The notes under the pieces are model-generated. The model saw only the letters and a program-made list of their open reading frames with translations, was not told the DNA's origin and ran no database searches. Positions 3,041 to 21,312 of a DNA stretch of 37,597 nucleotides are shown here, in pieces (within the stretch, counting starts at the first letter, position 1; each line of letters opens with the position of its first letter). Position numbers and translations under genes: made by a program. The DNA is from a virus: IMG/VR virus record IMGVR_UViG_3300030329_006528, positions 1-37,597 of that record; one strand, given 5' to 3'.

Positions 3041-3870
3041 GTGAGAGTATAGGGGTAGGTATTATTACTTGTGATCGACCCGATTTTTTTACAAAATGTA
3101 GGGATTCTATAGATCATAAATGCTACGATCATATAGTTGTTGTAAATGACGGTAATAATGACGTGGTTAATCCTAGAGCACCAGTTATAAAAACAGGTGG
3201 TAGAGAGGGAGTAGGTAAGGGTAAAAATAAAATTTTGAAATACCTGTATGAAAAGGGTTGTGATTATATGTTTTTGTTAGAAGATGATATGATCATGTTA
3301 GATTCCTCTGTTTTTGACAAATATATACAAGCACATAAAGCATCTGGTATACATCATTTTAATTACGGTCCTGGGTCTCCATTTAATAGAAAGCAGACTA
3401 TCCAAAATTTCGATCTTCATAACAGGCATGAGTTAGATCAACACTCTGAACCGAATCCTCGGTTAATTATAGATTATAAAGATATAAAAATATCTTTATT
3501 TACACATACTGTTGCCATGTTTTCTTTTTTTACGAGAGAAGTAATAGATAAAACAGGATATTTAGATGAAGAATTTTATAATGCGTGGGAGCATGTAGAT
3601 CATACGTATAGAATAATTAAAGAAGGTATGCACCCTCCATTTTGGTACTTTGCAGATATATATGACAGTCATAAGTATATGACTGAAGCCCCTCAGGCTA
3701 TTGATAAATCTTCTATTGCTGGTGACTCTGAACAATGGAAAAAAAATGTATACGGTGGTAGAGAGATTTATAAACGAAAGCACGGTCATTATCCCAATAT
3801 GCCACCTCATACAACCAAAGAAGAAGTATTACAAACCTTAAAACAAATTAAAAATGATTATTCCAAATAG
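3037..3870 (+). CDS. GT2-like glycosyltransferase
   Basis: A GT-A type nucleotide-diphospho-sugar transferase. It opens with IGVGIITCDRPDFFTKCRDSI, the first strand and helix of the fold, continues with IVVVNDG and has the metal-binding EDDM at residues 82-85 in YMFLLEDDMIMLDS. AMFSFFTREVIDKTGYLDEEFYNAWEHVDHTYRI is typical of the acceptor half (the helix with the ED/EHVD catalytic region). Length 277 aa is normal for a single-domain enzyme. It overlaps its upstream neighbour by 4 bp and its downstream neighbour by 17 bp. The sugar transferred is unknown. Confidence 0.8.
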   Translation: MSESIGVGIITCDRPDFFTKCRDSIDHKCYDHIVVVNDGNNDVVNPRAPVIKTGGREGVGKGKNKILKYLYEKGCDYMFLLEDDMIMLDSSVFDKYIQAHKASGIHHFNYGPGSPFNRKQTIQNFDLHNRHELDQHSEPNPRLIIDYKDIKISLFTHTVAMFSFFTREVIDKTGYLDEEFYNAWEHVDHTYRIIKEGMHPPFWYFADIYDSHKYMTEAPQAIDKSSIAGDSEQWKKNVYGGREIYKRKHGHYPNMPPHTTKEEVLQTLKQIKNDYSK

Positions 3871-4624
3871 CTGTATATTTTATTTAGTAAACGAACAAGA
3901 AGTACATCTCCGTAGATTAGAGAGTAGCTTAAAGTGCCTTAACGATAATTTTTTAAAGGATTACCCATATCCAGTTGTTTTTGGCCATGAAGGTCTATCT
4001 GGATCTACAAAAGATAGAATTCGAAAAGTTGCTCCAACTAATCATTATTTTCATAAAGTAGATTTTTCTCTGCCCGCTTATAGTCAAGATATATTAGATA
4101 AAATACCAGAAAAGTTTAAAGGTCATTGGGATGAAAATGCATTTTTTTCAATGGGATATAGACATATGTGCAGATTATTTTCTGGAGGGCTTTATAAGGA
4201 TGAATTTTTTAATAATGTAAAGTATATAATGCGATTAGATTGTGACTCGTATATTACTGATAAAATTACACAAGACCCATTTAAAGTTATGGCAGATAAA
4301 GAAGCTATCTATGGGTATGTAGGAGAAGAGGAAGATATGGATTATGTTATTGAAGGGCTATTTGACTTTGCAGAAAAAGTTTTACCAACTGATCAAAAAC
4401 TTCAATATAATAAAATGTATCAAACACACTTCTTTATTGAAGACTGTGAATGGTTCTGCACAGGTCCTTATATGAAATTTTTTGATGAGATTGATAAAAC
4501 TGGTAACATCTATATTAAGCGATGGGGTGATGCTCCTATAAAATATCAAGGCGTTATGAGATTAGTACCAAAAGAGAAGCGCATTAAATTCGATTTACCA
4601 TATAGACATGGCGGGGACTTATGA
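3854..4624 (+). CDS. GT15-like alpha-1,2-mannosyltransferase (Kre2/Mnt1 type)
   Basis: GT15 enzymes (Kre2/Mnt1) add alpha-1,2-mannose to glycoproteins and are best known in fungi. The diagnostic block is present: GYRHMCRLFSGGLYKDEFF at residues 101-119, then YIMRLDCDSYITDKI (124-138), matching the family pattern YRHMCRF-SG followed by WRVEPDV. The acidic DCDS takes the place of the fungal EPD metal/nucleotide site. The protein is 256 aa, shorter than the roughly 400 aa fungal enzymes, and lacks their N-terminal membrane anchor, so it is a soluble cytoplasmic form. Its start lies inside the upstream gene (17 bp overlap) and its stop overlaps the next by 4 bp. Family membership is well supported; mannose as donor is inferred from family. 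Confidence 0.82.
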   Translation: MIIPNSCIFYLVNEQEVHLRRLESSLKCLNDNFLKDYPYPVVFGHEGLSGSTKDRIRKVAPTNHYFHKVDFSLPAYSQDILDKIPEKFKGHWDENAFFSMGYRHMCRLFSGGLYKDEFFNNVKYIMRLDCDSYITDKITQDPFKVMADKEAIYGYVGEEEDMDYVIEGLFDFAEKVLPTDQKLQYNKMYQTHFFIEDCEWFCTGPYMKFFDEIDKTGNIYIKRWGDAPIKYQGVMRLVPKEKRIKFDLPYRHGGDL

Positions 4625-5508
4625 TAAGACAAAAACCAAAATCGCAATTCCACAGCCATCATAATAGCCATAGCTATGAGACTGAAAATGGAGCCGTTGT
4701 GATCGATGGCGAGGTCATTGTGGACCATCTTCAAACTCGACAAACATATGAGGCAAACGTACTTAAAACTATTCATAATGAAGAATGGCAACAGAAGCGT
4801 GATGAGCCGAAACCATACATTAAAAAAGCGCTAGATATTTTTCGGGATATAGAAGGTGAAGTAATAGTTGAAATAGGGTCCGGGCCATATAGCTCTTCGA
4901 TCTTTGCAAAGGCATCCAAGACATTTTATACATGTGATAATAATATAAACAGTTCTAGAGAAGCATATAAATCGATTATAAAAGACAACTGCATACCGAC
5001 TACCTTTAACCAAATTAATCAGTCTGAAGATCCGGATACGTTAAATGATCTTTTATTTACCGTTGCGCCTGATGGTTGGCCTATAACATATACAGGGAAT
5101 GCGTCTATTACCGAAATTGAGAGTAATACTACTTATACAGATAAAGAATGTAAGCAAACTGCAACAGTTTATAATGGCGACGGTCTTTTATTTTTACAAG
5201 AATTTACCGGTAAGATTGATCTACTATACTTAGATGCCTGGGATATAGGCACTGACAAATACAAGGAAAGACATTACGAAGCATACCTCAAATGTAAAAA
5301 CAACTTAAATGATAAGAATATAATATTAATTGATGATACGGATGTTGATTTTTCGCGATATAACGGTTATCATATAAATGAAAAGGATGACATCTTAGAC
5401 TATAATAATTGTATTGGTGGTAAAGGGGGAATTCTTATTTCCCATTTACTACAAAATGGATATAATGCTCAATTTACTGGTCGACAGACATGCTTAACAA
5501 ATTTTTAA
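4621..5508 (+). CDS. class I SAM-dependent methyltransferase-like protein
   Basis: A Rossmann-fold methyltransferase signature is seen: VIVEIGSGPYSSSIF (residues 81-95, SAM-binding glycine loop), FYTCDNN (acidic end of strand 2), KIDLLYLDAWD (strand 4) and NIILIDDTDVD (strand 5), as in the Methyltransf_24 group often found in polysaccharide clusters. The first 20 residues contain a His-rich stretch (HSHHNSH), an oddity with no clear role. It overlaps the GT15-like gene by 4 bp and is followed one base later by another transferase. Probable role is O-methylation or another modification of a sugar; the acceptor is unknown. Confidence 0.68.
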   Translation: MIRQKPKSQFHSHHNSHSYETENGAVVIDGEVIVDHLQTRQTYEANVLKTIHNEEWQQKRDEPKPYIKKALDIFRDIEGEVIVEIGSGPYSSSIFAKASKTFYTCDNNINSSREAYKSIIKDNCIPTTFNQINQSEDPDTLNDLLFTVAPDGWPITYTGNASITEIESNTTYTDKECKQTATVYNGDGLLFLQEFTGKIDLLYLDAWDIGTDKYKERHYEAYLKCKNNLNDKNIILIDDTDVDFSRYNGYHINEKDDILDYNNCIGGKGGILISHLLQNGYNAQFTGRQTCLTNF

Positions 5509-5509
5509 A

Positions 5510-6247
5510 ATGAAAATCGCGATTTTAGTACCAACAAGAGAAAGAATGAATAATAGACTTACTCTATTATTTTCTATATTAACCACTGTTGACAATATAG
5601 AAAATGTTAACATTTATTACGGTGTTGATAAAGATGATCCAACACTGGAAACTATTAAAAAGGTCGCAGCTGGAATCCCGTCGTTACGTATTATTGAAAT
5701 TGATAATAAAGGTAAATTTTTAGGTCTCGGGATATTATGGAATAAGCTGGCTGAAGCCTCTAATGAGGAAATTATATCTATGATAGGCGATGACATGGTA
5801 TTCAAAACACCCGGATGGGATACAATGTTATTAAAAGAATTTAATAATATGCCCAAGGATCAAATTCAAGCTGTACATTGTAATGATGACTGCCATGGCG
5901 CACAACTAGCTGTTAATTTATTTTGTCATAGAAAATATGTCGACATTTTAGGTTATTTTATGAGAGAAGAATTTGTAATTAATTGGGTAGATCAATGGCT
6001 TCATCAAACATTCTCTGCATTTGGAAGACTAAAGTATAGGGGGGACATTATGATTGAACACAAACACTGGGTGTTAGGAAAGAGTAAAAAAGATACAACT
6101 GCCGAAAGAATGGCTGTAGCTGATGCTAATAAAATTAGTGATAAATTGTGGCATGACTTAGTAGACGAAAGAATTAGTGATGTAAGAAAGATCGGTGAAT
6201 ATTTAAAAATAAATCCGGATTGGAATAAAGTTGATACGGGATCATAA
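5510..6247 (+). CDS. GT2-like glycosyltransferase
   Basis: MKIAILVPTRERMNNRLTLL at the N-terminus, followed by NIYYGVDKDDP and MIGDDMVFKTPGWD (GDDM at residues 93-96 as the metal site), marks a GT-A fold transferase of the GT2 type. Later FCHRKYVDILGYFMREEFVINWVDQWLH corresponds to the acceptor helix with an acidic catalytic residue. 245 aa is short but complete for the fold. There is no membrane anchor. The flanking genes are two methyltransferase-like proteins, one base and two bases away. Confidence 0.78.
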   Translation: MKIAILVPTRERMNNRLTLLFSILTTVDNIENVNIYYGVDKDDPTLETIKKVAAGIPSLRIIEIDNKGKFLGLGILWNKLAEASNEEIISMIGDDMVFKTPGWDTMLLKEFNNMPKDQIQAVHCNDDCHGAQLAVNLFCHRKYVDILGYFMREEFVINWVDQWLHQTFSAFGRLKYRGDIMIEHKHWVLGKSKKDTTAERMAVADANKISDKLWHDLVDERISDVRKIGEYLKINPDWNKVDTGS

Positions 6248-6249
6248 AA

Positions 6250-7002
6250 ATGGGTGAAATAAACGCACATGATAAATTAGGAGCATACATTATTCAATGT
6301 GTAAAGGAGTTAAATCTAAAGACAAATTTAGAAATAGGATCCTGGGACGGTACGGGTGCGACTAGATGTTTTATAGACGCAATGAAAGACTTTCCAGAAA
6401 AGTCTTTAACATGTTTAGAGATAGATAAGAAAAAATACAATAATCTTGTTAAAAATGTAAATGAATATTCATGGGTTAAATGTTATAATAAATCATCAAT
6501 AGATTGTAATAAGCTAATCGAGTTTGGATTTGAGAGAATGTGGAAGTCTCCCTTTAATCCATTAGTACGTTTTCCTGACGTCGAAAAGGAGACTGTGCAT
6601 CAGTGGTATAATAATGATGTTGAGATAATGAAAAAATACCCAGATGGATTTTTAGAGAGAGATAAAACAATATATGATGCTGTATTAATTGATGGTGGTG
6701 AATTTACCGGTTATTTTGAATTTGAGCTTTTAAAAAATCGAACAAACGTGTTCTTTTTAGATGATACTTTTAGATCCTATAAAACAAATAAAGCAGCTAT
6801 TATCTTATCAGAAGATTTAGAGTGGGACTGTATAGCGTATGAAAGATGTATAGAAGACATTGATTGGGGACTGGATCCGGATATAGAAAAAGAAGAAGAT
6901 ATACCTCAAGACATTCTAGAAACTATAATAGAACACCGAATGAATGTGAGAAATGGTTTTGCTATTTTTAAAAGAAAAAAATTTATAGGACATGGAGGAT
7001 AA
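6250..7002 (+). CDS. class I SAM-dependent methyltransferase-like protein
   Basis: TNLEIGSWDGTGATRCF (residues 26-41) is a SAM-binding loop, LTCLEIDKKKY gives the acidic residue after strand 2, and YDAVLIDGGEFTGYFEFELL plus TNVFFLDDTF give strands 4 and 5. This layout is that of Methyltransf_24-like proteins of surface-sugar clusters. It is the second such protein in the run and is only loosely like the one starting at 4621. It overlaps the next gene by 11 bp. The substrate cannot be predicted. Confidence 0.7.
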   Translation: MGEINAHDKLGAYIIQCVKELNLKTNLEIGSWDGTGATRCFIDAMKDFPEKSLTCLEIDKKKYNNLVKNVNEYSWVKCYNKSSIDCNKLIEFGFERMWKSPFNPLVRFPDVEKETVHQWYNNDVEIMKKYPDGFLERDKTIYDAVLIDGGEFTGYFEFELLKNRTNVFFLDDTFRSYKTNKAAIILSEDLEWDCIAYERCIEDIDWGLDPDIEKEEDIPQDILETIIEHRMNVRNGFAIFKRKKFIGHGG

Positions 7003-10067: not shown

Positions 10068-10919
10068 ATGTCAAAAGAAACCAATTTTATTTTATTTCAT
10101 AAAGGACATAATTTGCCTCAGCATATAAGAGTATGTGTAGATCAAATTAAAAAGACGCAGACCAACTACAAAATATTTTTATTAACAGATTTAAAAATAG
10201 ATAATAGTGGTGATGTTATTATTATTGATATTAATCAATACCATATACCATTAGACAATATAACCTACTATAAAGGCCATCAGGACCCTTTATGGCGCAC
10301 TGCTTTCGAGAGACTTTTTTACATTAACGAATTTATTAAGCACTACAACTTAACTAACATCGTACACTTTGATAATGATGTCTTAATCTATAAAAATATT
10401 GCAGATATTTCTGCTCTGCTAAGTGATAATATACCAAACATCGGCCTTACGCCGCATAAAGAAAATGAACTTGTATGTGGATTTATGTTTCTAAAGAACA
10501 GTAATTCTTTAGAAGTAGTATGTAAAGAATTGTTAAATCTTGCTGTATTAGGGGAAAATAAATTAGAAGAGATGCTTAAAAGCATGCCTCATGAAATGAG
10601 ACTGCTAGGCCACTTACAAAATAATGTATTAGAAAAAGATATCATTACTTCGTTACCGGTTTCCCCTATAGAGCCAGGTAATAATTTGTTTACGATATTT
10701 AACGGTGTGTTTGACCCTAGTTCTTATGGGCAGTTTTTTGGACTCGATAATACAATTCACCCCGATGGTGCTAATAGGTTTATTGATAGGTATATAAACA
10801 AAGAATTTATACCTGTTTTTGATCGCTACGAGCCCTATATAGTATGGAATAAAAAACAAGTGCCTATTTTCAATCTGCATATACATAATAAACACCTTGA
10901 ACGATATGCTAGCAGGTGA
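10068..10919 (+). CDS. GT-A glycosyltransferase-like protein
   Basis: TNFILFHKGHNLPQHIRVCVDQI resembles the beginning of capsular-polysaccharide GT-A transferases; LWRTAFERLFYINEFI followed by IVHFDNDVLIYKN (FDND at residues 101-104) is the helix plus metal-binding motif arrangement of that fold. FNLHIHNKHLERY near the C-terminus gives the histidine expected to close the metal site. The family could not be named. It overlaps the next frame by 23 bp if the TTG start of that gene is used. Confidence 0.65.
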   Translation: MSKETNFILFHKGHNLPQHIRVCVDQIKKTQTNYKIFLLTDLKIDNSGDVIIIDINQYHIPLDNITYYKGHQDPLWRTAFERLFYINEFIKHYNLTNIVHFDNDVLIYKNIADISALLSDNIPNIGLTPHKENELVCGFMFLKNSNSLEVVCKELLNLAVLGENKLEEMLKSMPHEMRLLGHLQNNVLEKDIITSLPVSPIEPGNNLFTIFNGVFDPSSYGQFFGLDNTIHPDGANRFIDRYINKEFIPVFDRYEPYIVWNKKQVPIFNLHIHNKHLERYASR

Positions 10920-11727
10920 ACAATTCCAGTCATTATGTCAAATAGGGTTTTATACAGAAATCAATTCTATTATTGAAGATCAAAATAAAGCCTTTAAGCA
11001 GAATATACATAAAATATCTAATGTAAGTATTGAAGATATTAAAAAATATAAAACAATTTTTATTTATACTCACTTTGTGTATGACTTTATGCACAAATTT
11101 TTAGACTATCTAGATAATGCTACTATAGTAACACATAACTCAGATCACAGTATAAATAATGAACACTTACAATATCTTAATCATAAGAACATAAACAAAT
11201 GGTTTTGCCAAAATAGGGAGACGTCACATTCAAAATTATTTTCAATACCTATAGGAATAGCAAACAGCCAATGGCCACACGGCAACCAGGATGCTATTAA
11301 AAGTATAAAAGAAAACGATACATTAAAAACAAATTTAGTGTATAAGAATTTTCAAGTAGACACCAATCATGGTGAGCGCGCTTTATGTAATCATATTACT
11401 AATACAAATGGTATATTAATGAATAATAATACATCACAACAAATGTATTGGAATAATATTAAAAAAAGTCTATTTGTTATATCCCCACCCGGTAACGGAA
11501 TCGATTGTCACCGTATATGGGAATGCCTTTACTTACGTTCTGTACCAGTAGTAAAATACCATGAAGCATTTTCTCAATTTAAACATCTACCTATTCTCTT
11601 TATAGATGATTGGAACGAGGTAACGGTAGATTTTTTAAGATCAAAGATCGAAAACTACATAAATTTTGACTTTAATATTCCAGATCTTACTTTAAAATAT
11701 TGGAGAGATAAAATAATAAATGGTTAA
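10897..11727 (+). CDS. exostosin/GT47-like glycosyltransferase
   Basis: The diagnostic block is KKSLFVISPPGNGIDCHRIWECLYLRSVPVV at residues 189-219; the pattern SPxGxGxDCHRxWExLxxGxxPVV is that of exostosin-domain (GT47-like) GT-B transferases, the donor-binding part of the C-terminal Rossmann domain. The N-terminal half is divergent. The longest frame starts at a TTG at 10897; an ATG three codons later (10906) is equally good. It ends 8 bp inside the aminotransferase gene. Donor sugar unknown. A second gene of this type lies at 18958. Confidence 0.68.
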   Translation: MNDMLAGEQFQSLCQIGFYTEINSIIEDQNKAFKQNIHKISNVSIEDIKKYKTIFIYTHFVYDFMHKFLDYLDNATIVTHNSDHSINNEHLQYLNHKNINKWFCQNRETSHSKLFSIPIGIANSQWPHGNQDAIKSIKENDTLKTNLVYKNFQVDTNHGERALCNHITNTNGILMNNNTSQQMYWNNIKKSLFVISPPGNGIDCHRIWECLYLRSVPVVKYHEAFSQFKHLPILFIDDWNEVTVDFLRSKIENYINFDFNIPDLTLKYWRDKIING

Positions 11728-12751
11728 GAACATTCCTAGAGTTAGAAAAAAATTTAAAGATGGTTATACATATCTTAATAGGAATATGATAATGGACTGT
11801 CACCCGGATCATATTTACCATAAGTTAATAAACACGTTTAAAGCTGAAGATCTACATCAATACCCAGATATGTTTCCACCGTATGAGCTTCTAGGGAAAT
11901 ATTTAAATGTCAGTGAAGATCAATTATTATTAACCCGAGGGGTTGAAGGTTCAATTAAAACAATTTTTGAATCGTTAAATTTAAGTGGTGAATGTGTTGG
12001 GGTATTTGTTCCAACATGTGCAATGTTTAAAGTATATGCTGATGTTTTTAATGTAAACTTTATACCCATTAAGGGACAAGCACCAGAATATAATATCAGT
12101 GTACAGCAAGTAAAGGATGTAGTACCAAAAATTAAAGTACTTTTTTTGACAAATCCAATGTCACATTTGGAAAACTGCTTTTCAAACGAAGAGTTACAAG
12201 ATCTAATTTGTTTTTGTCAGAAGCACAATGTTTTAGTTTTTTTAGATGAGGTATATACTGGGTGGGAAAATAAAAGTTATTTACCATTTTTAGAAAAACA
12301 CGATAATCTTATTATATCCTCAAGCTTTTCGAAAATTGGATTTCCGTCAATAAAGACGGGGTGGTTGGCTTGTAACAAAAAATTAAAAACTCAACTTGAA
12401 GCTACAAGAGGGGCTTACGAACTAGATTATTTCTCAAATAAAACTCTAGAATTTATTATTAATAACAAGGACTATTTTAAAGAACTAAAGAAAAATCTTT
12501 TACTCACAAAGAAAAAATGGATTGAGTACTTCTCTGCTAATAGTAATTTTAAGGTATATAATTCATCATTATATACCGTAAGACTATACTCTGAAAATAA
12601 AAAACTAGTAAAACGTATATTTGATAATTTATATTCAAAAAAAATTGTAGTAAATGTGCTAGATGAAACTAATTTACAGTTTTCTGTATCCACTAATCCC
12701 AAAATAGAAAAATTGATTTTTAGTGAAATTACGGTAAATACCAGAAAGTAA
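11720..12751 (+). CDS. class I/II PLP-dependent aminotransferase, HisC-like
   Basis: Fold-type I aminotransferase related to histidinol-phosphate aminotransferase. Visible are LLLTRGVEGSIKTIF (cofactor phosphate helix), TNPMSH (Asn145), VFLDEVYTGW (Asp176 pairs with the PLP nitrogen) and SSSFSKIGFPSIKTGW with Lys205 as the Schiff-base lysine. The C-terminal Arg that binds the substrate carboxylate in HisC-type enzymes (LRISxG) appears to be Gln320 in LQFSVST, so the substrate may not be an ordinary amino acid, or the reaction may be a decarboxylation. It may aminate a sugar or make a non-sugar side group. Its stop shares one base with the next gene, a cupin, suggesting joint action. Confidence 0.8.
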   Translation: MVKNIPRVRKKFKDGYTYLNRNMIMDCHPDHIYHKLINTFKAEDLHQYPDMFPPYELLGKYLNVSEDQLLLTRGVEGSIKTIFESLNLSGECVGVFVPTCAMFKVYADVFNVNFIPIKGQAPEYNISVQQVKDVVPKIKVLFLTNPMSHLENCFSNEELQDLICFCQKHNVLVFLDEVYTGWENKSYLPFLEKHDNLIISSSFSKIGFPSIKTGWLACNKKLKTQLEATRGAYELDYFSNKTLEFIINNKDYFKELKKNLLLTKKKWIEYFSANSNFKVYNSSLYTVRLYSENKKLVKRIFDNLYSKKIVVNVLDETNLQFSVSTNPKIEKLIFSEITVNTRK

Positions 12752-13104
12752 TGAAGGCGGGTAAAATATGGGGCGAAACAGAGCTACTCCACGCTAATGG
12801 GGTGTTAGAGTTTCATAGAATCCAATTTAAAGCAAAGGCTCAATGCTCAAAACATAAGCATCAATTTAAATGGAATGGATTTTTTGTGGAATCTGGAGAA
12901 CTATTAGTTCGTGTATGGTCAAGAGAAGATGAGATTGATGTTGACGTAGTTGATACTATTTTAAAACCAGGAGACTTTATGCAAGTTAAGCCTGGCTTAT
13001 ATCACCAATTCGAAGGTATAAAAGCAGGTGTTGCTTTTGAATTATATTGGGCAGAATTTAACCATGGTGATATAATAAGAGAAACTTTTGGAAAGGAAAT
13101 TTAA
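12751..13104 (+). CDS. single-domain cupin protein
   Basis: A small beta-barrel cupin. Motif 1 is seen as CSKHKHQFKWNGFFVESGELLV (His35 and His37) and motif 2 as LKPGDFMQVKPGLYHQFE (His85), giving the metal-binding histidines. 117 aa is one complete cupin domain. Such proteins in sugar clusters act as isomerases, epimerases or metal-dependent modifying enzymes; nothing here fixes the reaction. It shares one base with the aminotransferase upstream and lies 2 bp before a zinc-ribbon methyltransferase, so the three genes may form one tailoring step. Confidence 0.75.
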   Translation: MKAGKIWGETELLHANGVLEFHRIQFKAKAQCSKHKHQFKWNGFFVESGELLVRVWSREDEIDVDVVDTILKPGDFMQVKPGLYHQFEGIKAGVAFELYWAEFNHGDIIRETFGKEI

Positions 13105-15033: not shown

Positions 15034-15747
15034 ATGAGTTATAGTTACGATAATATACAAGATTTTAAAGATATACATAAGGGTAAACGAGCTATTGTAT
15101 GCGGTACGGGACCCTCTTTAAATGATATTAATTTTGACTTAATATCCTCAGATGAAAATATAATTTTTGCGTGCAATCAATCTGTTACTGCTCTTTCTAG
15201 GTGTGATTATTTTTGCTTAGCTGACAATGCAATTGTAATAATGCCGTTTTTTGAATATGGTATTAATATCGCTACTAAAGTTATAGCTATGGGCAATCTT
15301 CTCGATTTAGTAGGAAATTGTCATGATCCGGATCAAGAACGTAAATTAACAGAAATGTTGGAGAGTAAGGTGCATATTTTACCGAGAAAGGACAATCACA
15401 GTCTCGAATTTAGTAAATCTGGCTCTATTATTCGTGGTCCAGCTGGAGAAGATGTAATTCATGTTACATCTCACCTTGCATATATTATGGGATGTAGAGA
15501 AATTGTATTAGCTGGAGTTGATCTTACTGTGAACAACGGCATATATTGTAACCCTACAACTTATAAAAAGGAAGTTGATTGGTCCGGAGTAGCCCCGGTT
15601 AATAATCCACAATTTTTAGATGCATCTTACAACACGTGGCTAAAAGTAAAAGAAATTAATAGCAATATAAAATTTTTAGATGCCTCGCCACGCGGAAGAT
15701 TAAATGAGATATTTGATTCTATATCAATTGAATCTTTATATAGTTAA
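15034..15747 (+). CDS. DUF115/GT42-like Rossmann protein
   Basis: KRAIVCGTGPSLNDINFDLI (residues 18-37) with IFACNQSV and the later EDVIHVTSHLAYIMGCREIVLAGVDL are the pattern shared by DUF115 (MptE-like) proteins and GT42 bacterial sialyltransferases such as Cst-II (GNGPSL, CNQ, and a helix-strand ending in SGID). A CMP-sugar transferase is therefore possible, but a DUF115 protein of unknown function is just as likely. At 237 aa it is near the length of Cst-II's catalytic core. It is the last gene of the plus-strand run and its TAA overlaps the TAA of the opposite-strand gene (TTAA shared by both). Confidence 0.6.
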   Translation: MSYSYDNIQDFKDIHKGKRAIVCGTGPSLNDINFDLISSDENIIFACNQSVTALSRCDYFCLADNAIVIMPFFEYGINIATKVIAMGNLLDLVGNCHDPDQERKLTEMLESKVHILPRKDNHSLEFSKSGSIIRGPAGEDVIHVTSHLAYIMGCREIVLAGVDLTVNNGIYCNPTTYKKEVDWSGVAPVNNPQFLDASYNTWLKVKEINSNIKFLDASPRGRLNEIFDSISIESLYS

Positions 15748-16082
15748 TCCGGGTCACCAAAAAAAAGCCAATCCGACATTCCTTTATCGTCAATAAACTT
15801 GTCGGCTCCTGGCTTACCTAGGAACAGTTGATGATATTTTACATTCCAAGAATCTAATTGCTTTTTGGTAAAGTCATACATTTCCTCATGAGCTTTAGCT
15901 TGATCATTATTAGTTCTACCCATGCCTCTAGCAGTCATAAAGAAAATAGTATGGCCCTGATCATATAGCTCATTAACCTTTTCTATCCTTTTTGTATGCG
16001 GTGTACTTTTGTCGTAGGGTCCCATGTCGGGGCTATGACAAATAGTATTGTCAATATCAAAGCAATAAGTTAATTTATCCAT
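15744..16082 (-). CDS. small HAD-superfamily phosphatase
   Basis: HAD motifs are seen in order: CFDIDNTIC (Asp9, Asp11), FFMTARG (Thr50), LGKPGADKFIDDKG (Lys90 and Asp98/Asp99). 112 aa with no cap domain matches the small capsule-cluster HAD phosphatases. It is the last gene of the minus-strand operon and overlaps the transaldolase gene by 13 bp. In the heptose pathway the 7-phosphate of the bisphosphate is removed by GmhB, also a HAD enzyme; this gene could do that job although GmhB is larger (about 190 aa). That role is inferred from context. Confidence 0.78.
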   Translation of the reverse strand: MDKLTYCFDIDNTICHSPDMGPYDKSTPHTKRIEKVNELYDQGHTIFFMTARGMGRTNNDQAKAHEEMYDFTKKQLDSWNVKYHQLFLGKPGADKFIDDKGMSDWLFFGDPD

Positions 16083-16738
16083 TCTTTAAAGTCTGTTAAA
16101 AATTGATCAACTGATGATTGGGTACCGGGATGTGTTGTACCTTTTTTTATTACATCATAACCGGCAGTTACAATATCTGCCCCGCCAACCCATGCATCCG
16201 TAATATCTTTAGGTGTGCGAATACTACCTGCGATAATTTTGCAATTTAGGTTATTACTCTTAATAAATTTAGAAGCATCATCCAGTGTACAAAATTCATC
16301 TTCACCACTGTCTTTTGCTCTATTATAAAAAAATGACACATATCGGGCGCCAGCCGCGGCAGCCAAAGTTAATTGCGAGGTAGTAAAACAACATGTACAA
16401 TTAACGCGCGCACCGACAGCAGCAAGTTTACTAATAGTCTCTAATTCATTAAATCCAACGGGTATTTTTATGTTTAAATTGTGGTAACCTATATCCTCCT
16501 CTAGGCGCAAAGCCTGTTGATAAATTTCATCTTGGTCAGTAGCAAACACCTCAACACTAAGTGGGATGTTATTATATTTTTGACAAATTTCTGCAATTTT
16601 TATCATATGATTTACGTAACTACCTCTAGGTTCCTTAGACATTAAGGATGGGTTTGTAGTTACACCAGAAATAATTCCACGCTTGCATGCTGAGGAAATT
16701 TCATCAAGATTAGCAGTATCGATAAAGAGCTGTCGCAT
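16070..16738 (-). CDS. talC: TalC-type transaldolase
   Basis: Transaldolase moves a dihydroxyacetone unit between sugar phosphates and interconverts fructose 6-phosphate plus erythrose 4-phosphate with sedoheptulose 7-phosphate plus glyceraldehyde 3-phosphate. Visible active-site residues are Asp7 (FIDTANLDEI), Asn29 (GVTTNPSLM), Glu63 (SVEVFATD) and the Schiff-base Lys91 (NIKIPV), followed by AGSIRTP. Glu63, where fructose-6-phosphate aldolases have Gln, favours transaldolase. Marine cyanophages carry TalC as a pentose-phosphate auxiliary gene, but here the neighbours are heptose genes, so it may serve sedoheptulose 7-phosphate supply. 222 aa is the normal family length. The start is followed by 30 bp to the cupin gene. 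Confidence 0.88.
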   Translation of the reverse strand: MRQLFIDTANLDEISSACKRGIISGVTTNPSLMSKEPRGSYVNHMIKIAEICQKYNNIPLSVEVFATDQDEIYQQALRLEEDIGYHNLNIKIPVGFNELETISKLAAVGARVNCTCCFTTSQLTLAAAAGARYVSFFYNRAKDSGEDEFCTLDDASKFIKSNNLNCKIIAGSIRTPKDITDAWVGGADIVTAGYDVIKKGTTHPGTQSSVDQFLTDFKEWIN

Positions 16739-16768: not shown

Positions 16769-17182
16769 TCAACTATCTTCAGTAAACTTATAGGTTTTAC
16801 CGTCCTCTACAATGTGAGAATCGCCGTCGTCATCTTTGTTAGACCACTCGATAATAATAGTATCCTCTAGGGCTATTCTCATATGCATTAACCCGGGAGG
16901 TATGTGGTATACATCGTTTTCCTCCAGTGTAACCGACGTATTCTCTGCACGACCGATGCGATGACCAACCTTTAGTTTACCGGAAAAAATATAATAAAAT
17001 TCATCTTTATTGCAGTGATATTCCATGCTACTCTGACTGCCCCTTTTCATGAAAATCTTCTTTAAAGTAAAGTTTTCATCGGCAAAAACAGAAGTAATAT
17101 ATCCCCAGTACTTATCCTTATGTAGAATAGGTTTTAGTATCGGAGGAAGATGTTGGATTCCAAATTCGTTATCTTTCTTCAT
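16769..17182 (-). CDS. cupin protein, mannose-6-phosphate isomerase type II-like
   Basis: A single cupin domain: FTLKKIFMKRGSQSSMEYHC with EFYYIFSGKLKVGH (motif 1, His then Glu) and ENDVYHIPPGLMHMRI (motif 2, His). The arrangement resembles the C-terminal cupin of type II phosphomannose isomerases. The ATG at 17182 gives 137 aa and overlaps the kinase gene by 14 bp; a longer frame to 17281 lies wholly inside the kinase and was not used. It is the third gene of the minus-strand operon, between the kinase and the transaldolase, so an isomerase or epimerase step on a heptose or related sugar phosphate is plausible but unproven. Confidence 0.75.
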   Translation of the reverse strand: MKKDNEFGIQHLPPILKPILHKDKYWGYITSVFADENFTLKKIFMKRGSQSSMEYHCNKDEFYYIFSGKLKVGHRIGRAENTSVTLEENDVYHIPPGLMHMRIALEDTIIIEWSNKDDDGDSHIVEDGKTYKFTEDS

Positions 17183-18065
17183 ATCGCTTTTTAAATAGTT
17201 CAAAACTCGGCGGTGTAGCTCCCTTAGTTTCTGTAGATAGACCCGCCCATAAATTACATTTATATAGTACTTCTTCCACATCGTGGCTCCAGTCTTGAGT
17301 AGCTAACATAGCAATAAAACTATCACCGGCACCACATGTATCCACCACCGTAGTATCGATACTCGGAACGTGAATATCCTTAAATTTACTACCCCTACTA
17401 CCCATAGTTTCTACAACCTGACACTTAGACCATGGAAAAGAACTTGACCACTCCTTTGCCTCTTCTTCATTTAGTACAATTAAATCACAACCATTAAACT
17501 TTGATAATTGTAGAGTTGTTTTATTTCCCCAATCAGAAAGTTGACCGGTCCCAATACACGGAATTGATAATTTCTCACATATATCTATTACACCTGCTGT
17601 TACTTTTTTAGTTAATACACCGCATCTGTAATCACTTAAAATAACACACTCATAATGAGGTAATATGTTGGTTAGTTCATCAATAACATCTTCTTCTGAC
17701 CCTGGATTAAGTTCATCGCTATCAGTATAATTCATCTGCAAGTACTTGTGTTGTACATGATTTCTGTCAACATAATACCGCTGTTTTGAAGAGGTTTGTT
17801 TTTTTGTTGTAATACAGTGTACATTTACTTTTTGTGATAGATCATCATACACAGTTGTATCACTACATATGGTCATATAACCGACATTACACTCTAAAGC
17901 GACTAAATTCATGACAACATTACCTGATCCACCAGGGCTTTTTTTTGTCGATGTATGTTCACATTTTATTGTAGGAGACTCAAGCGAAAGACCAACAGCT
18001 TGACCGGTAATATACTCGTCAATTATTAAATCACCTATTACAAATATTTTTTTTCTATCAAGCAT
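17169..18065 (-). CDS. hldE1-like: PfkB-family heptose kinase, HldE domain I-like
   Basis: HldE's first domain phosphorylates D-glycero-D-manno-heptose 7-phosphate at C1. The protein has IFVIGDLIIDEYITG at the start, SLESPTIKCEHT with SPGGSGNVVMNLVALECNVG (PfkB signature 1, as in HldE's SPEAP...PGGAANVAMN), and DTCGAGDSF (residues 242-250; signature 2 with catalytic Asp248). 298 aa is the length of the HldE kinase domain alone. In enterobacteria the kinase and adenylyltransferase are one polypeptide; here they are separate genes overlapping by 8 bp. A different PfkB sugar kinase cannot be excluded, but the neighbouring HldE-type adenylyltransferase makes heptose the best guess. Confidence 0.82.
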   Translation of the reverse strand: MLDRKKIFVIGDLIIDEYITGQAVGLSLESPTIKCEHTSTKKSPGGSGNVVMNLVALECNVGYMTICSDTTVYDDLSQKVNVHCITTKKQTSSKQRYYVDRNHVQHKYLQMNYTDSDELNPGSEEDVIDELTNILPHYECVILSDYRCGVLTKKVTAGVIDICEKLSIPCIGTGQLSDWGNKTTLQLSKFNGCDLIVLNEEEAKEWSSSFPWSKCQVVETMGSRGSKFKDIHVPSIDTTVVDTCGAGDSFIAMLATQDWSHDVEEVLYKCNLWAGLSTETKGATPPSFELFKKRYEER

Positions 18066-18918
18066 ACTGTTTAATTTTTTCTACAACTCTCGTTGTAGAG
18101 TAAACGTCTTGGTTAAGCAATGAAGCAACTTTTACATCTATATGATTAGGGATTTCATCTCGTTCACGAACTTCAGCAGCTGTAAATTCCCCGCCCTTTA
18201 CAACAATATCTGGACCAATGTCATTGATAATATTTTTTGTGTCGATATCATTAAAAACAACAACTTCATCAACAAGAGATATATATGACAGTATTTTTTT
18301 GCGGTCTTTTTGATTGTTTATTGGCCTCTGAGAACCTTTAATTTTTTTTGTAGACTCGTCAGAGTTAATACCAACTACTAATTTATCTCCTAAACTTTTT
18401 GCAAATTTTAATGTTTCTAAATGACCAGCATGTAGTATATCAAACACCCCATTTGTAAATACTATAGATTGTGGCTTATGTCTGGATATTTTTTCTACCC
18501 TTTTAACATGACGTCCTTCACCAAATTGTGTGCCGAGCCACTCATTTAAAATTAATTCAGATGCTTTTGGCGTACTTATCCAGCTCCCTAGGCATAAAAT
18601 ATTAGAATCGTTATGCTCTCTGCATTTAGGGGCACTATCCAAATTATGAATTAAAGTCGCCCGTACGTTTTTAAATCGATTAGCAGCAATACTCATTCCA
18701 ACACCTGTACCGCAAATTAGAATGCCCTTTTTAATATCACCACTATCGATAATATTTCCCATTTGATAAGCATAGTCAACGTAGTCTACTGACTCTTTAT
18801 TATATGGGCCTAGATCAACGACATTAATATTTTTTTGCTTTAAGCAATTATAAAGAAAGTCCTTAAGATCAACTCCATTATGATCGGAAGCTATAGCAAT
18901 TGTTGTATCTAGGCTCAT
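18058..18918 (-). CDS. RpiB-type isomerase fused to HldE-type adenylyltransferase
   Basis: Residues 1-145 are an RpiB/LacA sugar-phosphate isomerase: IAIASDHNGVDLKDFL, DYVDYA, the catalytic Cys69 in GILICGTGVGMSIAAN, His102 in REHNDSNIL and the ending EGRHVKRVEKI. Residues 151-285 are a nucleotidyltransferase very like HldE domain II (heptose 1-phosphate adenylyltransferase): VFTNGVFDILHAGHLETLKF with HAGH at 163-166, NSDESTKKIKG, DIVVKGGEF and YSTTRVVEKI. The linker is only about 6 residues and the reading frame is unbroken. It is the first gene of the minus-strand operon. Both halves keep their key residues, so a bifunctional enzyme acting at the start and end of a nucleotide-sugar pathway is likely; the substrate of the RpiB half is inferred. 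Confidence 0.88.
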   Translation of the reverse strand: MSLDTTIAIASDHNGVDLKDFLYNCLKQKNINVVDLGPYNKESVDYVDYAYQMGNIIDSGDIKKGILICGTGVGMSIAANRFKNVRATLIHNLDSAPKCREHNDSNILCLGSWISTPKASELILNEWLGTQFGEGRHVKRVEKISRHKPQSIVFTNGVFDILHAGHLETLKFAKSLGDKLVVGINSDESTKKIKGSQRPINNQKDRKKILSYISLVDEVVVFNDIDTKNIINDIGPDIVVKGGEFTAAEVRERDEIPNHIDVKVASLLNQDVYSTTRVVEKIKQYA

Positions 18919-18957: not shown

Positions 18958-19854
18958 TTGACTTTACCCGGTCATTATTTAAATAATGCAGTGATTGGAA
19001 TTATATGTAAGGACGATATCGCTGCATTAAATCCTAGCTTGTTTTTAAATTTTAGACTCGGATTAACAAATTATCTTAAGACCAAATTTGTAGAAGTAAA
19101 TGACATTAACGATCTAGAAGATATTACTACGCTAATTATTGTTGATGAGCACTTTGGCTCACATGTATCAATATGGAAAGATGACCCTCAATTTGTTAAT
19201 GAATTAAACAATCGTAAAATAAAAACAATAGTCTTTAATTTTGAAAAAATCTTTAACAGTAAGTTTCCATGGAATGTAGATCATCAAAAGCGGCTAGAAT
19301 CTATTAATGATTTATATCAACTAGTAAGTGATGTAGATGATGCTATTACCCTCAATAAAAAAATTATTAACAAACAATTGCTATCTAAAGACTTAAAACT
19401 TGAACATCACACAGTAGAAAGAGAAAATAGAATTTTATTTTTAGGTCAATCAGATCCGGTCTATGATCCGAGCTGGTCTTATTCAAGAAGATTTAACGTT
19501 CTTAATGACTTAAGATCTCGACCTGACCTACCTTTAGATATTCATGTTACAGAACGAAAACTTCCATATAAAGAATTTTTAACAAAATTAGCAAGTTATA
19601 AATTTATTCTTAATCCACTTGGCACTGGAGATTTTATTAACATCCGCTTTTATGAAGCACTTAGACTTGGTTGCATTCCAATCCAACAAGTAACCGAAAA
19701 CATGCTTAATAGATACTCTGAACTTTCACCGAATATATGCCATCGGTTTAAAACTACTGATGAGGTGTGTTTACCGACACGGGCCTTTAAAAAATTTAAC
19801 TCTTCCTTAGAGGATTATTTTGAAGAAATACAGCTTATAAAACAAATTAATTAA
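18958..19854 (+). CDS. exostosin/GT47-like glycosyltransferase
   Basis: LASYKFILNPLGTGDFINIRFYEALRLGCIPIQ (residues 211-243) is the donor-binding block of exostosin-like GT-B enzymes: a strand, a Gly-rich turn, then the R-x-x-E-AL-LG-IP motif. RILFLGQSDP and DIHVTERKLPYKEFLTKL support the same C-terminal domain. The best start is a TTG at 18958; there is no suitable ATG nearby. It diverges from the heptose operon and is followed 2 bp later by an FkbM methyltransferase. It has the same motif as the protein at 10897 but otherwise differs. Confidence 0.65.
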   Translation: MTLPGHYLNNAVIGIICKDDIAALNPSLFLNFRLGLTNYLKTKFVEVNDINDLEDITTLIIVDEHFGSHVSIWKDDPQFVNELNNRKIKTIVFNFEKIFNSKFPWNVDHQKRLESINDLYQLVSDVDDAITLNKKIINKQLLSKDLKLEHHTVERENRILFLGQSDPVYDPSWSYSRRFNVLNDLRSRPDLPLDIHVTERKLPYKEFLTKLASYKFILNPLGTGDFINIRFYEALRLGCIPIQQVTENMLNRYSELSPNICHRFKTTDEVCLPTRAFKKFNSSLEDYFEEIQLIKQIN

Positions 19855-20730: not shown

Positions 20731-21312
20731 ATGATAATTGAACAGGGAGTCTATGACGGTAAATTAATTCATGAAAGATTTGCCTATAAGTTTTTTCGTA
20801 AAGAGGTTTCACCGTATGGTAATATTGTAGCATTTCGAGCTCCAATGTATGTGGAAGATGCATTAATTGATTTAGAAGATTCTTTAAGCGATGACCATAT
20901 TCATAGTCAAGATGCGATTAATTTTTGTTGGGAAATACCTGGTGTATGCCCCCTAGGGGCAGTGTCCTTCCAGAGACTTTTTAATACTGCAGTAGCAAAT
21001 ATACTATCAGGCATTATACAAAAAGGAATAATGATAGATGGTGATGATATTATGGTACAAGATAAATTTGTTGGTAATGATGATAAGGTTAGAGAATCAG
21101 GCAAAGTAAGTGTATCTATTACCTATTCCAAGGATAATGTTACATTAGGTCATACAGGAATTAATATCAAGGCAGGAGACAAAGCCCCGGGATTTGCATA
21201 CTCGTCCAATTTGTCAGATGATCAAGTTGATTATTTTATTAATGCAGTAGTTGATTATTTTAATGACGAAGTAAAAGATCAGTTTGTTGCAACTACAAAA
21301 ATAATTGTATGA
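20731..21312 (+). CDS. DUF366-like protein
   Basis: The pattern YDGKLIHERFAYKFF, NIVAFRAPMYVE, LIDLEDSL, HSQDAINFCWEI and later KVSVSITYSKDNVTLGHTGINI matches what I recall of DUF366, a family known from archaea and some phages with no firm function. 193 aa is the family length. It has an ATAAGG ribosome-binding-like sequence just before the ATG. Its last 4 bp overlap the clamp-loader-like gene, so the two are co-expressed. No membrane segment or Cys cluster is visible. Confidence 0.6.
   Translation: MIIEQGVYDGKLIHERFAYKFFRKEVSPYGNIVAFRAPMYVEDALIDLEDSLSDDHIHSQDAINFCWEIPGVCPLGAVSFQRLFNTAVANILSGIIQKGIMIDGDDIMVQDKFVGNDDKVRESGKVSVSITYSKDNVTLGHTGINIKAGDKAPGFAYSSNLSDDQVDYFINAVVDYFNDEVKDQFVATTKIIV

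Follow-up and report, generated by a model that had tools for sequence, protein, structure and literature searches.

The window analysed here is the whole of one 37.6 kb virus record (IMG/VR record IMGVR_UViG_3300030329_006528, 37,597 nucleotides). On its minus strand, at 18058–18918, lies a gene in which an RpiB-type sugar-phosphate isomerase and a nucleotidyltransferase are encoded as one chain of 286 amino acids. The frame opens with an ATG at 18918 and closes with a stop ending at 18058, with zero internal stops; the plus-strand frame over the same interval is riddled with them. An initial annotation, made from the letters alone, had proposed this one-chain fusion, and its coordinates proved exact.

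Both expected Pfam domains are found in the single frame. LacAB_rpiB (PF02502, 7.6e-48) covers residues 7–144 (18487–18900, minus strand), and CTP_transf_like (PF01467, 4.2e-21) covers residues 154–280 (18079–18459, minus strand). The linker between them is short, as had been suggested, but by Pfam it is ca. 9 residues long instead of about six. The RpiB half scores above the cut-offs of two NCBIfam families (TIGR01120, 150.2 against 138.65; PRK05571, 163.7 against 135), and the best NCBIfam nucleotidyltransferase match of the other half is rfaE_dom_II (TIGR02199, residues 144–284, 144.6 bits). An AlphaFold2 model of the protein has a mean predicted local distance difference test score (pLDDT) of 81 and a predicted template modelling score (pTM) of 0.48. 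The orientation of the two domains in the model is unsure because confidence is low in the linker (133–148) and because of this pTM. In Foldseek searches with the model, the halves match RpiB (3he8, 1.6e-14) and HldC (5xf2, 1.5e-10), so that the second domain is described here as similar to RfaE domain II.

The fusion is real; an artefact is excluded by its recurrence. Scanning with the whole protein returned 14 further full-length fusions, all with RpiB in the same open frame, and a scan of IMG/VR with the RpiB half returned 52 viral fusion contigs (L177–L228), several of which are identical to contigs L002–L015 and some of which are near-identical to one another. Since these 52 contigs carry the same fusion with its gene cassette kept, the arrangement is more than chance. 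No full-length fusion was found among 50,697 named phage records. Synechococcus phage Bellamy (H57), a cultured cyanophage, has an RpiB-like stretch of 28.6% identity at 163214–163642, annotated as phosphatase or hypothetical.

The fusion gene is the first of five minus-strand genes flanked by plus-strand genes, in the order fusion, RfaE-I kinase, cupin, transaldolase and small HAD phosphatase. The second gene (17169–18065, minus strand) overlaps the fusion gene by 8 bp and encodes a PfkB kinase like RfaE domain I, a putative sugar-phosphate 1-kinase (TIGR02198, 6.2e-37) whose match in the PDB is heptose-7-phosphate kinase (4e84, 1.3e-07). The third (16769–17281, minus strand) encodes a cupin protein with Cupin and PMI-type matches and no significant match to solved structures; comparison with the related contig L002 puts its true start probably near 17200. 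The fourth (16070–16738, minus strand) encodes a TalC-type transaldolase (PF00923, 1.3e-39). Fructose-6-phosphate aldolase was considered for this protein and dropped, as solved transaldolases match far better (2.4e-34, against 4e-19 for the aldolase). The fifth (15744–16082, minus strand) overlaps the transaldolase gene by 13 bp and encodes a cap-less HAD phosphatase of 112 amino acids with the HAD motifs DIDNT, T, K and DD. It is EcbF/BcbF-like (TIGR01689, 7e-08, far under the cut-off; PDB 9iqw, a capsule biosynthesis protein, 1.2e-11).

This cassette is widely kept. Among the 48 viral loci with at least 3.6 kb of downstream sequence, the kinase, the cupin and the transaldolase are each found in 47 and the HAD in 40. 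A sixth gene, for an AraD-type L-ribulose-5-phosphate 4-epimerase (1.4e-60 to E. coli AraD), is found in 44. AraD is missing from the window, from L002 (197 kb) and from L012, L013 and L228. Contigs L178–L181, which group with L002 in a nucleotidyltransferase tree, do have AraD, and the absence of AraD is therefore read as a loss. In L005 a second, unfused nucleotidyltransferase follows directly after the fusion cassette with a kinase and a cupin (11682–12801), and L194 and L195 also have an extra nucleotidyltransferase.

A control set of 66 viral loci with the nucleotidyltransferase but without RpiB looks different. In most of them a single open frame encodes both the nucleotidyltransferase and a PfkB kinase, the arrangement of HldE, and none has a match to RpiB, transaldolase, HAD or AraD nearby. 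Cupins are found near 36 of the 66. Genes of GT9, the heptosyltransferase family, are within reach of 11 of the 52 viral fusions, of a cellular fusion (L083) and of an unfused relative (L233), both described below, and of none of the 66 controls, though the GT9 profile was built partly from genes adjoining the fusion and so leans towards this result. GmhA (TIGR00441), the isomerase of bacterial heptose synthesis, was found in 0 of 42 viral records, fusion-bearing or not. Its absence was considered as proof of replacement by RpiB and rejected as such, as the 27 viral records without the fusion also lack GmhA; the absence is weak evidence because viral kinase–nucleotidyltransferase loci without RpiB lack it as well.

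The RpiB half is catalytically intact but altered. Cys69 and His102, and in the other half HAGH at 163–166 and YSTT at 273–276, all stand at the positions first reported for them, mostly in invariant columns. The window protein keeps Asp12, His13, Cys69, His102, Arg136, His137 and Arg140, and this catalytic and phosphate-binding set of D, H, C, H, R, H and R is kept in all 52 viral fusions. It also has Asn14, Val47 and Trp113, which are specific to the fusions. In 52 of 52, Asn follows the Asp-His pair and Trp occupies the Arg110/113 position (equated with Arg113 by aligning it with E. coli Arg110 and by the shift in numbering between His99 and His102); the residue after Asp-Tyr is Val in 43, Thr in 4, Pro in 3 and Ala in 2. 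Of 77 standalone RpiB proteins, 66 carry Arg where the fusions have Trp, none has Asn14, and none has Asn and Trp together. Standalone viral RpiB proteins from the same scan keep the Arg, with L233 the only one to have both Asn and Trp.

In trypanosomatid RpiB, Arg113 binds the phosphate (PMC4882579). In LacAB its role is taken by another Arg, the pocket is 3 Å longer and fits hexose phosphate, and the residue equivalent to Asn14 forms part of the wall of that pocket (PMC3755991). A basic residue at the position of LacB Arg39 was considered as a new phosphate ligand in the fusions and rejected: the window has Ser there, and no more than 16 of the 52 have Lys or Arg.

The nucleotidyltransferase half has differences of its own. 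The HxGH motif is present in 34 of 35 fused domains. KGGE[WF] is found in 22 of the 35 and KGGD[YW] in none, while KGGD is found in every one of the 21 HldE-like domains from viruses. The motif (V/I)Rx(R/F)D is present in 34 of 35 fused domains, compared to 0 of 21 viral and 0 of 14 cellular HldE/HldC domains. By these residue patterns, both halves of the fusion seem to be tuned to a non-standard substrate.

The scan of cellular genomes in GTDB found at least one fusion-bearing cell among the matches listed, Pelagibacteraceae AG-900-G16 (L083), in which the fusion is on a 267 kb contig and is 53% identical to that in the window. It was the only fusion found in searches of 297 Pelagibacteraceae and 385 Alphaproteobacteria genomes. 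A Salmonella record (H1), the only one in the search of named phage records with more than 80% of the query covered (85%), was considered as a cellular fusion and is an ordinary HldE. The L083 gene lies in a surface-sugar cluster in the order SIS isomerase, GT9, transaldolase, fusion, kinase, cupin, AraD and HAD; the SIS-domain (GmhA-like) gene, at 5676–6260, adjoins the GT9 gene and is just upstream of the cassette. Among the matches listed, no cellular gene family was found that combines this fusion with a different known role, and the single cellular copy lies within the same cassette. The genome also has an ordinary RpiB of 147 residues elsewhere, separate from the fused copy, which argues that the fused copy is specialised. 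In Kiritimatiellae/Victivallales, RpiB opens frames of 564–579 residues in another fusion (L095, 7992–9683; L113, 7953–9680; L104, 7944–9680).

In the nucleotidyltransferase tree, the fused domains form one clade (support 99/97) and the L083 copy is nested among the viral ones (89/82); on this tree the fused nucleotidyltransferase domains share ancestry. A single origin of the RpiB half is weakly backed in its own tree (86/28), where L233 is placed beside the fusions. The L233 RpiB (4977–5432) is unfused, has the same Asn/Val/Trp signature and lies beside GT9, AraD, kinase and transaldolase genes. By its signature and neighbours it may represent the pre-fusion state.

The favoured interpretation, with a probability of about 0.5, is that the fusion is a bifunctional, phage-encoded enzyme that would help convert a phosphorylated ketose to a nucleotide-activated sugar, the best candidate being a seven-carbon sugar other than ordinary D-glycero-D-manno-heptose. 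In the route that we infer – its substrates, order of steps, product and use alike – the transaldolase would make a ketose phosphate, most likely sedoheptulose 7-phosphate, and in most relatives the AraD-type epimerase would epimerise it at carbon 4 or supply an alternative. The RpiB half would convert the ketose phosphate to an aldose phosphate, the RfaE-I kinase would phosphorylate carbon 1, the small HAD would strip the terminal phosphate, and the fused nucleotidyltransferase would form a nucleoside diphosphate (NDP) sugar for phage glycosyltransferases. The locus bears out the proposal that two enzymes of the same activated-sugar route, its isomerase and its nucleotidyltransferase, have been joined: the end of the fusion gene runs into the kinase gene, and the transaldolase and the phosphatase are encoded further along.

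Four observations point to a seven-carbon sugar: TalC is of the transaldolase type, able to make sedoheptulose 7-phosphate; the kinase and the nucleotidyltransferase match heptose families best; GT9-like genes are near some fusions and near none of the controls; and the RpiB signature is unchanged where AraD has been lost. It is plausible that the RpiB half would act as a sedoheptulose-7-phosphate isomerase. Literature searches for a link between RpiB and heptose turned up no paper on it. The heptose reading of the initial annotation stands in part – the kinase, nucleotidyltransferase, transaldolase and some GT9 genes agree with it, while the fusion-specific residues do not, and AraD leaves room for a pentose or a different heptose.

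Several results weigh against this interpretation. TIGR02199 gives 144.6 bits on the nucleotidyltransferase half, under its curated cut-off of 181.5, and the best family of the kinase, TIGR02198, gives 127 bits against a cut-off of 345. No more than 4 of the 35 fused domains, those of L083 and L228 among them, have the strict HENase motif (F/L)XXGXSTT; the window lacks it and reads LLNQDVYSTT there. The small HAD is EcbF/BcbF-like and by family different from GmhB, the cupin fits no assigned step, and 8 of the 48 loci have no HAD match, among them L227, which lacks most of the cassette nearby. The AraD of most relatives is close to a true L-ribulose-5-phosphate 4-epimerase, which suggests a pentose.

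One of the two main alternatives, though a doubtful one, is that the product could be an NDP-pentose; the other is canonical ADP-heptose, discussed below. AraD would make L-ribulose 5-phosphate from D-xylulose 5-phosphate, the RpiB half would convert this to an L-pentose 5-phosphate, the kinase, HAD and nucleotidyltransferase would carry it to an NDP-L-pentose, and the transaldolase would feed the pentose pool. The AraD is of the canonical kind and goes with the fusion, being found in 44 of 48 loci and in 0 of 12 viral records that lack the fusion, but it is absent from the window and from L002, L012, L013 and L228, where the RpiB signature is kept. RpiB is by origin a pentose enzyme, yet the loss of the phosphate-binding Arg113 speaks against an ordinary pentose 5-phosphate. 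Phage RB69 makes arabinosyl-hydroxymethylcytosine and has a module of a sugar-phosphate isomerase and a nucleoside triphosphate (NTP)-transferase-like protein (PMC6024577), but the kinase and nucleotidyltransferase here are outside the known pentose families.

Canonical synthesis of ADP-D-glycero-beta-D-manno-heptose, with RpiB in place of GmhA, is unlikely. The kinase and nucleotidyltransferase families fit it, but the nucleotidyltransferase half differs from viral and cellular HldE/HldC in its KGGE[WF] and (V/I)Rx(R/F)D motifs. A transaldolase could supply sedoheptulose 7-phosphate and GT9 genes are near some loci, but AraD is foreign to the ADP-heptose pathway. No GmhA was found in the fusion phages, but the cellular locus has a GmhA-like SIS gene beside its cassette. 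With the known RpiB/LacAB substrates (ribose, allose and galactose phosphates), carbon 2 is set opposite to that of a mannose-type heptose, and this suggests a product that is non-manno, unlike the ordinary bacterial heptose. Because both halves carry fusion-specific changes and AraD fits a pentose as well, the product is probably something other than ordinary ADP-D-glycero-D-manno-heptose.

It is very improbable that the protein is an ordinary ribose-5-phosphate isomerase that, with the transaldolase, boosts pentose and nucleotide supply during infection, the nucleotidyltransferase being incidental: talC is a known phage metabolic gene (PMC10452541) and the RpiB catalytic residues are intact, but the in-frame fusion occurs in 52 contigs with a kinase adjoining, Arg113 is gone in all fusions and kept in the other, standalone viral RpiB of the same scan, and the fusion-bearing cell has its own RpiB.

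Compared to known systems, the logic of the pathway is familiar, while the isomerase is different, the fusion is new and there are extra enzymes. The HldE (RfaE)/HldC pathway to ADP-heptose has the same kinase and nucleotidyltransferase families and the same logic of isomerase, kinase, phosphatase and nucleotidyltransferase. Here, however, the nucleotidyltransferase is joined to RpiB and not to the kinase, RpiB stands where GmhA would, AraD and transaldolase are added, and both halves have fusion-specific residues. RpiB, AlsI and LacAB share the fold, the catalytic Cys and His and two phosphate-binding Arg residues with the fusion, but the fusion has Trp for Arg113, Asn after Asp-His, and an attached nucleotidyltransferase.

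The HENases of Tang et al. 2024 are NDP-heptose-type nucleotidyltransferases that are also found in viruses. As described in PMC11461863, they occur alone, with a kinase, or with an isomerase and kinase, and no viral phosphatase is reported. An RpiB–nucleotidyltransferase without a kinase falls outside these three subgroups, most members here lack the strict motif, and a phosphatase candidate is present. The L228 fusion (4989–5861) has a GRSTT motif, that of STTR5 in Tang et al., predicted to take several NTPs; it is on a stretch of 56% G+C with neighbours unlike those of T4-like phages.

The module for arabinosyl-hydroxymethylcytosine in RB69, a T4-like phage, also pairs an isomerase (ORF055c) with an NTP-transferase-like protein (ORF53_52c) as a proposed maker of an activated sugar, and counterparts of the two are fused in Butyrivibrio (PMC6024577). 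The families are unrelated, however (the isomerase is of the SIS type), and that module serves DNA modification, the hydroxymethylcytosine machinery for which was not found here. Marine T4-like pelagimyophages and cyanophages carry broadly similar types of genes, rfaE and talC, but the accessible text describes no RpiB fusion or cassette of this kind in them (PMC7029224, PMC10452541). It is quite possible, at somewhat less than an even chance, that these marine phages, and a Pelagibacteraceae cell at the least, have an undescribed NDP-sugar route. Transaldolase, AraD and a re-specialised RpiB would in that case assemble a heptose or pentose, in activated form, that lies outside the known pathways, and the isomerase would be joined in one chain to the nucleotidyltransferase of the last step.

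Judged by its structural genes, the window represents part of the genome of a T4-like myovirus. Its portal, head protease, major head protein and sheath stabiliser match T4-like phage families, and cyanophage major head proteins are ca. 32% identical to its own. Glycosyltransferase, methyltransferase and sugar-modifying genes take up much of the left half. Divergent from the fusion gene is a plus-strand gene (18958–19854) for an exostosin/GT47-like protein (PF03016, 0.0016, a weak match) that is retained in L002 and may be a user of the sugar. Elsewhere, 3854–4624 encodes a Glyco_transf_15 protein of the KRE2 mannosyltransferase type (2.7e-27), a family best known from fungi, and 10897–11727 encodes an RXYLT1_C/exostosin-like relative of ribitol xylosyltransferase (4.8e-08). 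A radical SAM protein at 626–1414, QueE-like by eye (Pfam Fer4_12, 7.5e-06), has a possible link to 7-deazaguanine, and a DUF366 protein (20731–21312, 1.1e-18) is also kept in L002.

From this gene content, the phages probably produce an uncommon nucleotide sugar of their own, with which a surface would be decorated. By analogy, a surface glycan is a better guess than DNA modification: a role on the host O-chain has been suggested for the rfaE and glycosyltransferase genes of pelagimyophages (PMC7029224). That the sugar instead modifies phage DNA has little to recommend it – T4-like phages are known to have hydroxymethylcytosine that carries sugars (PMC6024577), but the cassette sits amid glycosyltransferases and methyltransferases, and the absence of any thymidylate synthase (ThyA)/dCMP hydroxymethylase family gene from 10 fusion-phage records of up to 197 kb, mostly fragments, makes DNA glycosylation of this type unlikely.

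Instead of single borrowed genes, these phages would carry a whole sugar-activation route with a supply enzyme and a candidate phosphatase. The fused, altered RpiB offers a clear enzyme test, between a sedoheptulose-phosphate and an L-pentulose-phosphate isomerase. A new NDP-sugar, if the proposal is true, would point to the surface sugars that marine phages install on their hosts or on their own virions.
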